In this document: positions 42,591-45,551 of the stretch, piece after piece | Layout: the number at the start of each line of letters is the position of its first letter | How positions within the stretch are numbered: the first letter of the stretch is position 1 | From: Mesorhizobium sp. J8 | Lineage (GTDB): Bacteria > Pseudomonadota > Alphaproteobacteria > Rhizobiales > Rhizobiaceae | Assembly: GCF_016591715.1 (NCBI RefSeq) | Contig: NZ_AP024109.1 | Location: 4,092,001-4,156,000 of the forward strand | Reading direction: 5' to 3' | Length of the DNA stretch: 64,000 bases | Notes under the pieces: generated by a model | Seen by the model: only the letters and a program-made list of their open reading frames with translations | Told to the model about the DNA's origin: nothing | The model's database searches: none | Program-made: the position numbers and the translations under genes

Positions 42591-44009
42591 ATGGACATAT
42601 CGGGCCCAAATGTCAGCGGCGCCACCCTCGTCGAAACCGTCATGGCGGCAATCCGCCAGCGTATCGCGGCACGCACGCTGACACCTGGAGCCCGCCTGCC
42701 CTCGATACGGGCCATGGCCAAATCCATGCAGGTGTCGAAGTCGACCGTGGTCGAGGCCTATGAGCGCCTGGCGGCCGAGGGCACGATCCGTTCGCGACCG
42801 GGCTCGGGTTTCTACGCAGCCGGTCAGCTTGCGCCATTGTCGCTGGCCGAGATCGGTCCTCGGCTTGACCGCGCCGTCGATCCGCTCTGGGTGTCCAGGC
42901 AGTCGCTCGAAGCGGGCGAGGACATGCTGAAGCCCGGCTGCGGCTGGCTGCCCGCGTCCTGGATGCCCCAGGCCGCCTTGCGCCGGGCGCTGCGCACCGC
43001 GGCCCGCGCGGACGATATCGCGCTTGCCGACTACGGCACGCCGCTCGGCCTGCCGCCGCTGCGCCAATTGCTGGCAAGGCGCATGGCCGGGCATGGCGTC
43101 GAGGTTTCGCCGGACCAGATCATGCTGACCGACTGCGGCACCCAGGCGATCGACCTTTTGTGCCGTTTCCTGATCGAGCCCGGCGACGCGGTCCTGGTCG
43201 ATGATCCCTGCTATTTCAACTTTCACGCCCTGCTGCGCGCCCATCAGGCCAAAGTGGTCGGCGTGCCCTACACCCCTTCGGGGCCGGATATCGAGCTCTT
43301 CGCGGCGGCGCTCGCCGAGCACGGGCCGCGCCTCTACATCACCAATTCCGGCATCCATAACCCGACCGGCGCGATCCTGTCGCCGGTCACCGCGCATCGG
43401 CTGCTGAAGCTCGCCGACCAGGCGGACCTCACCATCGTCGAGGACGATATCTTCGCCGACTTCGAGCACAGCCCTGCCCCGCGCCTCGCGGCCTTCGACG
43501 GACTGCAGCGCGTCGTCCAGATCGGCTCCTTCTCCAAGACGCTGTCGGCTTCGATACGCTGCGGCTTCATCGCGGCGCCAGCCGACTGGATGGAAGGCCT
43601 GACCGATCTCAAGATCGCCACGACATTCGGCGGCACCCGGCTGTCCGCCGAACTGGTGCTGACCCTTTTGAAGGACGGCAGCTACCGCAAGCATGTGGAG
43701 CAGTTGCGCACCCGCCTGTCGCGCGCCATGGCCGAGACCGCCGGCAGGCTGAAGGCGATGGGTATAACGCCCTGGATCGACCAGCCAGCCGGCATGTTCC
43801 TCTGGTGCCGCCTGCCCGACGGCATCGACGCGGCGGAAGTCGCGCGCCATGCGCTGTCGGCCAATGTCGTGCTGGCGCCCGGCAACGCCTTCAGCCTGTC
43901 GCACACCGCCGGCCGCTTCATGCGCTTCAACGTCGCGCAATGCGCCGACGAGCGTATTTTCACCGTCTTGGAAAGAGCGGTCACAGCGTCCCGCCGCAAG
44001 GCGGCGTAG
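42591..44009 (+). CDS. MocR/GntR-type regulator with aminotransferase-like domain
   Basis: 472 residues, start chosen by GGAAG at 42581-42585. The N-terminal GntR winged helix spans residues ~10-75 (PGARLPSIRAMAKSMQVSKSTVVEAYERL). A linker leads to a fold-type I aminotransferase domain with DYGTPLGLPPLRQLLARRM, NSGIHNPTGAI and the PLP lysine K316 in GSFSKTLSASIRCGF. Such regulators respond to PLP adducts of amino compounds. It should control the divergent EamA exporter and perhaps itself. Confidence 0.9.
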   Translation: MDISGPNVSGATLVETVMAAIRQRIAARTLTPGARLPSIRAMAKSMQVSKSTVVEAYERLAAEGTIRSRPGSGFYAAGQLAPLSLAEIGPRLDRAVDPLWVSRQSLEAGEDMLKPGCGWLPASWMPQAALRRALRTAARADDIALADYGTPLGLPPLRQLLARRMAGHGVEVSPDQIMLTDCGTQAIDLLCRFLIEPGDAVLVDDPCYFNFHALLRAHQAKVVGVPYTPSGPDIELFAAALAEHGPRLYITNSGIHNPTGAILSPVTAHRLLKLADQADLTIVEDDIFADFEHSPAPRLAAFDGLQRVVQIGSFSKTLSASIRCGFIAAPADWMEGLTDLKIATTFGGTRLSAELVLTLLKDGSYRKHVEQLRTRLSRAMAETAGRLKAMGITPWIDQPAGMFLWCRLPDGIDAAEVARHALSANVVLAPGNAFSLSHTAGRFMRFNVAQCADERIFTVLERAVTASRRKAA

Positions 44010-44103
44010 TGCGACCACCGGTTGCCCTATCGGGCTTTGGCTGGTAGGGAACCGCCAACAGCCATGCCGGCGGGCATGCGCACCGTCATCGGGACCGACA
44101 GCC

Positions 44104-44133
44104 ATGGGATCCAGCAAGTCAGCAGACAAGTAG
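44104..44133 (+). CDS. Nine-codon leader peptide, CmlA-attenuator type
   Basis: The reading frame encodes MGSSKSADK followed by TAG. This closely resembles the leader of the chloramphenicol-inducible cmlA gene, recalled as MSTSKNADK, whose nascent peptide stalls the ribosome. It lies 98 bases upstream of a CmlA-like exporter gene and one base before a hairpin. A GGGA sits eight to twelve bases ahead of the ATG. The match of peptide, position and target gene supports translational attenuation; induction itself is inferred. Confidence 0.75.
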   Translation: MGSSKSADK

Positions 44134-44134
44134 G

Positions 44135-44159
44135 CCGCAACAGCGCTTCGTTGTTGCGG
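44135..44159 (+). promoter_or_regulatory. Stem-loop following the leader peptide (attenuator)
   Basis: CCGCAACA (44135-44142) and TGTTGCGG (44152-44159) form a perfect 8-bp stem with a 9-base loop, two bases after the leader stop. Further down, TCTGTC (44163-44168) can pair with GACAGA (44187-44192), while the overlapping AAGACA (44185-44190) can pair with TGTCTT covering the exporter start codon (44232-44237). These are mutually exclusive pairings of the type used in attenuators. It could also terminate the mocR transcript. Confidence 0.6.
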
Positions 44160-44230
44160 CAGTCTGTCCCGTTTCTCTCGATCCAAGACAGATCGCCGCC
44201 AAATCTCACCATTTGCGCGGATTTTTCCTC

Positions 44231-45424
44231 ATGTCTTCTCCGAACCAGCCGACATGGACCTTGTCCATGCCAGCAGCCCTGCTGCTTTTGTCTCCCTTCG
44301 ACGTCCTGGCCTCCCTCGCCATGGATATCTACTTGCCCGTCGTGCCGATCATGCCAGGCGCGCTCGGCACTTCGCCGGCCGTCGTGCAGCTGACGCTCAG
44401 CCTCTACATGATCTGTCTTGGCCTTGGCCAACTTGCCTTCGGGCCCATCTCCGACAGGACGGGCCGGCGCCCGGTGCTGATCGGCGGCGCGCTGGCGTTC
44501 ACGGCTGCATCCTTCCTGCTCGCCGTCACCTCGCTTGCACCGGTCTTCCTTGCCCTTCGCATCGCGCAGGCGCTCGGTGCTTCCGCCATGCTCGTCGCTG
44601 TCTTCGCCACCGTCCGCGACGTCTATGCGCAAAGGCCGGAAGGCGCCGTCATCTACGCCACGCTCGGCGCGCTGCTCTCCTTCGTGCCGGCGCTGGGGCC
44701 GATCGCCGGCGCCTTGGTCGCCAATGGCTTCGGCTGGCGGGCTATCTTCGTCACGCTCGGCATCCTGGCGGCAGTGGCGACGCTCAACGCCTGGCTGAAT
44801 TGGCGCGAAACGCGCCCGCTGGCCGATGGCGCTGCCCGGACTGGTCTCGGCTCGATCCTGCGCAGCTTCGGCTTCTGGACCTACACGCTGGCCTTCGCCA
44901 CCGCCATGGGCTCGTTCTTCGTGTTCTTTTCGACGGCGCCCAGGGTGCTCATCGGCAGGGCCGGCTTTTCCCAGATCGGCTTCAGCCTGGCTTTCGCCAG
45001 TGCGGCACTTGTGATGATCGTCATCGCACGCTTCGCGAAGCGTTTCGTCGCCCGCTGGGGCGTCGAAGGCAGCGTCAGGCGCGGCATGGCGATGCTGCTC
45101 CTGGGTGCTGTCCTGCTGGCTACAGGACAATTGTTCGCCGACCCGTCCTTCGCGAGCTTCGTCATGCCGATGTGGGTCATCGCCATCGGCATCGTCCTCA
45201 CCGCGTCGGTCACGGCTAACGGCGCGCTGGCGCCGTTCGGCGAGACCGCCGGCACGGCCGTCGCGCTTTATTTCTGCCTGCAGAGTGTGATTGTTTCGGC
45301 GGCGGGCACGCTGTTCGTCTTCCTGCTGGGCGGCGACACGGCATGGCCGCTGATTGGCTTTGCAGCAAGCTTCGCACTGGCGACTCTCTTTGCGTTGGGA
45401 CGAGCGAGACCGAAACAGGCCTAG
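44231..45424 (+). CDS. CmlA/Bcr-family MFS exporter (chloramphenicol efflux-like)
   Basis: 397 residues, twelve membrane segments. Extended similarity to CmlA is clear: LLLSPFDVLASLAMDIYLP, GPISDRTGRRPVLIGGALAF (motif A), LRIAQALGASAML, FATVRDVYAQRPEGAVIYA and MGSFFVFFSTAPRVLIGRAGFSQ. CmlA and FloR expel phenicols across the inner membrane. A cmlA-like leader peptide and hairpin precede it. The gene looks native to the chromosome, with base composition like its neighbours and no integron site visible. Confidence 0.87.
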   Translation: MSSPNQPTWTLSMPAALLLLSPFDVLASLAMDIYLPVVPIMPGALGTSPAVVQLTLSLYMICLGLGQLAFGPISDRTGRRPVLIGGALAFTAASFLLAVTSLAPVFLALRIAQALGASAMLVAVFATVRDVYAQRPEGAVIYATLGALLSFVPALGPIAGALVANGFGWRAIFVTLGILAAVATLNAWLNWRETRPLADGAARTGLGSILRSFGFWTYTLAFATAMGSFFVFFSTAPRVLIGRAGFSQIGFSLAFASAALVMIVIARFAKRFVARWGVEGSVRRGMAMLLLGAVLLATGQLFADPSFASFVMPMWVIAIGIVLTASVTANGALAPFGETAGTAVALYFCLQSVIVSAAGTLFVFLLGGDTAWPLIGFAASFALATLFALGRARPKQA

Positions 45425-45475
45425 AGAATGCTGAGGCGACCCGGGTCGGTCGAGATTCAGCTCAGGCCGAATCGA

Positions 45476-45551
45476 GAACGATGGGTTCCGAGAACCGGAG
45501 CGGAGCGTACTTGAAGTACGTGAGCACCGGAAGCGCAGGAAACCATCGTTC
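45476..45551. repeat. Palindromic intergenic element (RIME-like)
   Basis: Outer arms GAACGATGG (45476-45484) and CCATCGTTC (45543-45551) enclose a central near-palindrome CGTACTT-G-AAGTACG (45506-45520) and inverted CCGG-containing segments. It fills the gap between the convergent CmlA-like and MaoC genes. Its mosaic of nested inverted repeats is similar to the RIME class of rhizobial intergenic elements; that naming is from memory. It may also end both transcripts. Confidence 0.6.

Follow-up and report, generated by a model that had tools for sequence, protein, structure and literature searches.

In the attenuators of catA/cat, ermC, and fexA, a drug-stalled ribosome on a short leader frees the start site downstream. 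These attenuators, named in the available portions of PMC5418344 and PMC5890775, follow the same stalling principle as the one proposed here but have other leaders and genes. The attenuator of the cmlA cassettes of class 1 integrons has been known since Stokes and Hall 1991 (available part of PMC8876359), and KNAD, the core of its leader, serves as a chloramphenicol-dependent arrest peptide (excerpt of PMC10192921). For floR, two papers, in the portions available, describe the leader and the stem after it (helix 1:2 below), report induction by the drug, and reach no conclusion on the mechanism, since in these accounts the stem and the ribosome-binding site do not overlap and the role of the stem is unclear; the floR mRNA level is higher with drug (PMC5890775; PMC8256890). 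A family-wide structure appears in no title among the literature matches listed, a literature that leaves most subscription journals outside. The present analysis adds family-wide comparative support for the known cmlA mechanism, which bears on the floR question.

The window analyzed here is a stretch of 64,000 nucleotides from Mesorhizobium sp. J8 (contig NZ_AP024109.1, positions 4,092,001–4,156,000, forward strand), and positions below count from its first base. The leader, stem-loop, and exporter observed together in it are a real attenuator, and the locus is a new chromosomal member of the known cmlA kind; as backed by comparison and modeling, it is probably a drug-responsive translation attenuator with a phenicol-like inducer. 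Its parts, the RNA segments being defined by fold and alignment, are as follows:

42597..44009, + strand, MocR-like regulator (GntR and aminotransferase domains), separated from the leader by 94 bases
44104..44133, + strand, leader peptide gene, MGSSKSADK and stop TAG (frame, relatives, residue counts)
44134..44145, + strand, segment 1, 5' arm of the leader stem
44149..44168, + strand, segment 2, 3' arm of the leader stem (44149–44160) and TCTGTC (44163–44168)
44187..44204, + strand, segment 3, GACAGA and CGCCGCCAAAT
44211..44221, + strand, segment 4, ATTTGCGCGGA, upstream of the exporter start codon
44231..45424, + strand, CmlA/FloR family exporter, 397 aa (NF033134)

Segment 2 has two partners, segment 1 (off) and segment 3 (on). 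Segment 3 in turn has segment 4 as its off-state partner, to which it pairs by its 3' part. The likeness to cmlA lies in a nine-codon K-x-A-D-K leader, a stop adjoining the stem, alternative stem-loops, and a CmlA/FloR exporter downstream; in contrast to cmlA, the window attenuator is chromosomal, its leader is identical to that of cmlA at 6 of 9 residues, its start hairpin consists of CAAAT/ATTTG and CCGC/GCGG instead of the AAGGAG hairpin, and its exporter is ∼51% identical to CmlA1. With floR (L112) it shares a similar leader (MGNSKSADK), a stem after the stop, an exporter ∼64% identical, and helix 2:3 in the blocked fold, whereas the predicted off-state hairpin over the floR start codon lies in another register than that of the window.

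Leader peptide, exporter, and distribution of the element

The first-pass annotation had described a nine-codon MGSSKSADK frame adjoining a stem-loop, and this frame is present with the codons ATG GGA TCC AGC AAG TCA GCA GAC AAG TAG (ATG at 44104, stop at 44131–44133); the spacing of 98 bases given there is corrected to 97 when measured from the stop to the exporter ATG (44231). The cmlA leader given there, MSTSKNADK, is present in the cmlA1 locus (L110) and in the cmlA5 locus (L111). Other Mesorhizobium leaders read MGTSKSADK, MGTTKSADK, or MGALPQSDR, and the KKSD type occurs in Halomonas and relatives and SADE in Myxococcus and Corallococcus. The window thus has the short leader with a K-x-[A/S/T]-D core and a stop adjoining a stem that mark a cmlA-type attenuator. 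The stem-loop (44134–44160) touches the leader stop and has 12 pairs and a 3-base loop; it had been called perfect, but one pair is G-U and nearly perfect is the better term. The folding of 44105–44237 beats 200 of 200 dinucleotide shuffles (z −4.0), so the fold is not due to chance. Zero Rfam 15 matches were obtained in 43500–45500 up to E 5, and the element is therefore a candidate RNA family; its covariance model has a single match in the 6.69 Mb genome, at the window site (E 8.6e-24), in a scan with E up to 1 that scored 150 of 2118 first-look candidates and with the window among the model's own 63 rows.

The exporter was said to be CmlA-like, and it scores 611.7 bits with NF033134 (cmlA_floR), above the cut-off of 450, and below the cut-offs of the narrower models (FloR, 527.3 vs 700; CmlA, 391.6 vs 875). 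D23 and R109 of FloR, reported to contribute to its phenicol recognition (PMC5890775, available part), are both kept. In the comparison at FloR E283, the numbering used puts R at 283 of FloR L112 itself, so that the published position was not located. The window protein would, on its sequence, export phenicols.

Relatives of the exporter were sought in genus genomes at E 1e-60, in species-representative genomes, and in 2980 plasmid records (four regions fetched). The exporter was found in 33 of 146 genus genomes at that threshold, and the species-representative genomes hold at least 79 exporter loci among the matches listed. A leader, stop, and stem lie upstream in 106 of 113 fetched loci, oriented to the exporter strand and including cmlA1, cmlA5, and floR; the 113 are not all independent, some contigs occurring under two names (e.g., L004/L031). 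The stops are TAA in 74, TAG in 22, and TGA in 10, and TGG, which the pattern permitted, is absent. The seven loci in which the pattern was not found are L058, L075, L097, L098, L107 (upstream region lost to a contig end), and L108 and L109 (only 28–29% identity).

The RNA element was detected in 34 of 144 genus genomes, covering all 33 exporter genomes, a co-occurrence that is a matter of consistency and not an independent test because the model was partly built from genus genomes. In a phylum sample, at least 14 of 398 genomes match the element, and in 13 of the 14 the retrieved locus includes a CmlA/FloR relative; G745 (E 3.4e-5) is the one in which it does not, and its match is on both strands. 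In a class sample at least 1 of 385 genomes matches, solely the window. All these scan counts are lower bounds owing to strict filters and to the 8 candidates scored per genome (22 in the genus scan). The 34th genus genome (G005) keeps the attenuator between the same neighbors with the exporter deleted. At this locus (L130, C1 3777500–3783500) the leader and RNA element stand between MocR-like and MaoC genes, and the exporter is a short remnant.

The survival of the attenuator in G005 despite the loss of the exporter, and the nearly invariant leader core among the nearest relatives, would agree with the leader and stem being inherited baggage with a regulatory role absent in the window. This is very improbable, since loci with exporters only 50–60% identical keep the architecture, compensatory changes occur in the helices, and conservation is low in the 40 bases preceding the leader. 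In 65 sequences, the conservation check that the first-pass annotation had proposed gave a majority-base mean of 0.69 for the last five leader codons vs 0.36 in those 40 bases, which bears out its expectation. A regulatory attenuator remains the preferred reading.

The MocR-like gene is on the same strand directly upstream in 16 of the 30 genus loci L001–L030 (tblastn), and, among the 106 loci, 20 (16 of them distinct) have a MocR-like gene ending 56–197 bases upstream of the leader, which in G005 begins one base after the MocR stop. This closeness makes co-transcription possible, and the regulator may represent a second, transcriptional layer of control. The search of 43900–45500 for a sigma-70-like promoter found none.

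Comparative support for the helices

The alignment (A1) comprises 63 dereplicated sequences. Excluded beforehand were L103 (leader frame absent), L084 (start not found), L030 and L106 (exporter start misplaced), and near-identical copies, and the long-spacer loci (L002–L005, L031, L032, L070, and L105) were kept out. On these 63 sequences three helices are supported by comparison, namely 1:2, 3:4, and 2:3, the last of which excludes both others. Helix 1:2, after the leader stop, is paired in 99.0% of cells and has five pairs with two-sided changes. Helix 3:4, formed by CCGCCAAAT with ATTTGNGCGG before the exporter start codon, shows pairing in 86.2% of cells and a covariation of 0.217 vs 0.161 (sd 0.010) in shuffles, of which 0 of 500 equal it, and the best slid version reaches 0.090; its pairs with two-sided changes number 6 vs 4.7 in shuffles, no clear excess. 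In the cmlA group (14 sequences) the hairpin takes another register that includes AAGGAG, with 10 to 14 of the 14 paired at each of eight pairs, and segment 4 of the window aligns with this AAGGAG-bearing stretch of cmlA.

Transcription attenuation, in which the 3:4 hairpin followed by ATTTTTCC is an intrinsic terminator that a stalled ribosome prevents, has to be weighed here. T makes up 5 of the 8 window bases that follow the last paired base of segment 4, and the published rise of floR mRNA with drug (PMC5890775; PMC8256890, available portions) fits such a terminator; however, at least 5 T in these 8 bases occur in only 6 of the 63 family members, the window included, the hairpin is absent from the list of a terminator scan (which a bulged stem may escape), and it sits at the start region, with AAGGAG in the corresponding arm of the cmlA group. 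We consider this mechanism improbable and prefer translation attenuation, although the mRNA rise is not directly predicted by pure translation attenuation and leaves room for RNA stabilization or transcription effects.

Helix 2:3 has as its core GCGGC of the stem 3' arm with GCCGC of segment 3, and an outer extension that reads TCTGTC/GACAGA in the window, GTTCTC/GGGAGC in cmlA1, and GCCTGC/GTAGGC in Halomonas relatives. The outer part is paired in 69.1% of cells, with a covariation of 0.316 vs 0.213 (sd 0.019) in shuffles (0 of 500 equal it) and 0.177 in the best slid version. Pairs with two-sided changes show no excess over shuffles, with 8 vs 8.6 for helix 2:3 and 7 vs 6.8 for its outer part. 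Alignment and folds together thus contain a pairing incompatible with both the leader stem and the hairpin of the start region. The motifs named in the first-pass annotation were all located (TCTGTC 44163–44168, GACAGA 44187–44192, AAGACA 44185–44190, and TGTCTT 44232–44237), and TCTGTC/GACAGA is real, but it is the outer part of helix 2:3, and the core GCGGC/GCCGC is what competes with the stem and the start hairpin. A further pairing spotted by eye, of leader codons (columns 22–27) with the TCTG stretch (columns 85–90), was rejected, as 492 of 500 shuffles pair equally well or better.

Five distinct long-spacer loci (L002–L005 and L105) have an extra 56–80 or about 160 bases between segments 2 and 3; in L002–L005 the spacer is 56–80 bases longer than that of the window and holds an inverted repeat, and in L105 palindromic units lie at the same position. 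In all five, the blocked minimum-energy fold has all 5 core 2:3 pairs and the full fold has none. Related palindromic repeats are inserted into the switch loop of sister species, and the arm pattern of this repeat, CAATTCCRGGAAAAGTG, is repeated exactly at 94 sites of the genome, 73 forward and 21 reverse, of which 0 are in the window.

Modeled switching and the proposed mechanism

By convention, the edge of the ribosome lies 15 bases past the first base of the P-site codon. A stall was modeled by starting the RNA at the first base free of the ribosome, so that codon 8 in the P site corresponds to a start at 44141. The full window leader (44104–44260) folds with pairing probabilities of 0.99 for 1:2, 0.93 for 3:4, and 0.00 for core 2:3, and from 44141 these become 0.01, 0.02, and 0.97. 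A stall at P-site codon 6 (start at 44135) leaves the RNA in the off state (3:4 0.93), and one at codon 7 (44138) brings it half-way (0.52). Among the 63 sequences, 2:3 exceeds 3:4 in 57 blocked folds vs 11 full folds; the 11 include 10 cmlA-type rows, which form their hairpin in another register. The family mean of core 2:3 rises from 0.067 (full) to 0.786 (blocked). The start region becomes more accessible in 58 of the 63 sequences and does not in the other 5; its mean accessibility is 0.358 in full and 0.500 in blocked folds, a gain of +0.142 vs +0.015 (sd 0.111) in 756 shuffles. By stall codon, counted from the stop, core 2:3 exceeds 0.5 in 1 (−4), 37 (−3), 42 (−2), and 40 (−1) of the 49 non-cmlA sequences. 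The on/off switch by mutually exclusive pairings that had been suggested for the window is therefore supported by alignment and blocked folds, except that TCTGTC/GACAGA makes up only the outer part of the on helix.

Stalling by chloramphenicol and linezolid is strongest with Ala as the penultimate residue of the nascent chain and weaker with Ser or Thr (PMC8987054, available part). Residue −3 from the stop, which is penultimate once codon −2 occupies the P site, is Ala in 40, Ser in 18, Thr in 3, and Val in 2 of the 63 leaders, so that A/S/T account for 61 of 63; on the exporter tree, 80 of the 82 leader-bearing rows have one of these three residues there, with 11 changes. Asp at −2 is absent in 15 of the 63 leaders. 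This context rule, as given in that part of PMC8987054, together with the blocked folds, places the predicted stall at codon 8 (GAC, 44125–44127) in the P site with Ala of codon 7 penultimate, and the codon of the drug rule is thus also one at which the ribosome edge melts the stem. Codon −3 is NCA in 58 of 63, and part of the A/S/T pattern may therefore be an RNA constraint; first-position C (Pro) at this codon has zero occurrences in the 63. The wobble base of codon −3 (A1 columns 22–24) is A in 60 of 63, Val codons included, which exceeds what protein coding alone would require.

Linezolid has the same A/S/T context (PMC8987054, available part), and the leader could accordingly sense another ribosome stress or another natural product acting on the peptidyl transferase center instead of phenicols, with an exporter whose natural load may differ. 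We regard this as unlikely, though worth keeping in view, since the exporter scores above the CmlA/FloR cut-off and retains D23 and R109, and a phenicol-like inducer is preferred.

In the mechanism proposed from the folds, the leader would, without drug, be translated and released, segment 1 would pair with segment 2 and segment 3 with segment 4, and helix 3:4 would occupy the stretch just before the exporter start codon and keep exporter translation poor. A phenicol-like drug would stall the ribosome once leader codon 8 is in the P site, and the stalled ribosome would cover the stop together with seven bases of segment 1 from its 5' end; the freed segment 2 would pair with segment 3, probably beginning at the TCTGTC/GACAGA helix, and segment 4 would be released and the exporter made. 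Since TCTGTC/GACAGA is already formed in the off state (0.66 in the 44104–44260 fold), it may act as a toehold. Segment 4 ends 9 bases before the exporter ATG, and the absence of a strong Shine–Dalgarno sequence there is a point against this mechanism.

The AAGACA/TGTCTT pairing over the start codon, the second of the alternatives suggested earlier, has a probability of 0.02–0.90 in nine full-length folds (starts 44040, 44090, and 44104; ends 44240, 44260, and 44290), depending on the ends, and lies partly beyond A1. For RNAs beginning at 44134 or beyond it is at most 0.04 and, as 1:2 is still intact from 44134, it does not follow the 1:2 stem. Similar start-codon pairings, predicted for the full-length RNAs of floR and L044, make it a possible window version of a second lock over the start codon. 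In floR (L112), 3:4 in the window register is 0.00 and the full minimum-energy fold pairs TGACGA/TCGTCA over the start codon; in its blocked fold all five core 2:3 pairs form and accessibility rises from 0.43 to 0.64. L044 has a similar pairing in the full fold, yet the switch is absent in the model. In blocked cmlA1 (L110), 2:3 forms and a short hairpin over AAGG stays. The register of the start-region hairpin seems to differ between lineages (window vs floR L112 and L044).

Origin and relation to the mobile genes

The exporter tree (86 rows) was built by a quick method with several long branches and a midpoint root, leaving out L107–L109, near-identical copies, and the short-frame loci L027, L030, L066, L084, L102, L103, and L106. 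The window had been thought to suggest an ancestor of the mobile cmlA regulon, which the tree does not support, as the window exporter falls within a separate Mesorhizobium clade of 22 rows (support 99), away from cmlA1. The latter pairs with Pseudomonas sp. GD04091 (L085; support 99, 86% identity, leader MSTSKKADK), and floR pairs with Amaricoccus macauensis (80% identity, leader MESAKAADK). The attenuator probably predates the mobile genes because the leader occurs on both sides of the deepest split, and the window is not supported by these sequences as the source of cmlA or floR.

Similar devices precede relatives of the pump in soil and marine bacteria as well as the mobile cmlA and floR. 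Both common mobile phenicol exporters thus have a regulator that occurs on many chromosomes as well, a finding relevant to the origin of inducible resistance, and the named helices could link the floR leader stem to its start region and predict which changes abolish the switch. We would give about even chances to a joint reading in which one old RNA sensor, common to the CmlA/FloR exporters of Pseudomonadota and Myxococcota, predates the mobile genes. Its leader would have been kept by the chloramphenicol A/S/T penultimate rule, with the stall codon placed where the ribosome edge just melts the stem and the outer 2:3 helix as a preformed toehold; it would have been shaped by natural soil phenicols or other peptidyl transferase inhibitors and not by clinical use, with floR and cmlA as independent heirs from different chromosomal lineages.

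A natural hybrid was also encountered (L118, 1420–1720), in which the 5' part of a cmlA cassette with MSTSKNADK is fused to a floR2-type attenuator and exporter. The junction lies at the leader-stem core, and four plasmid records (H41–H44) cover at least 80% of the 301-base query.
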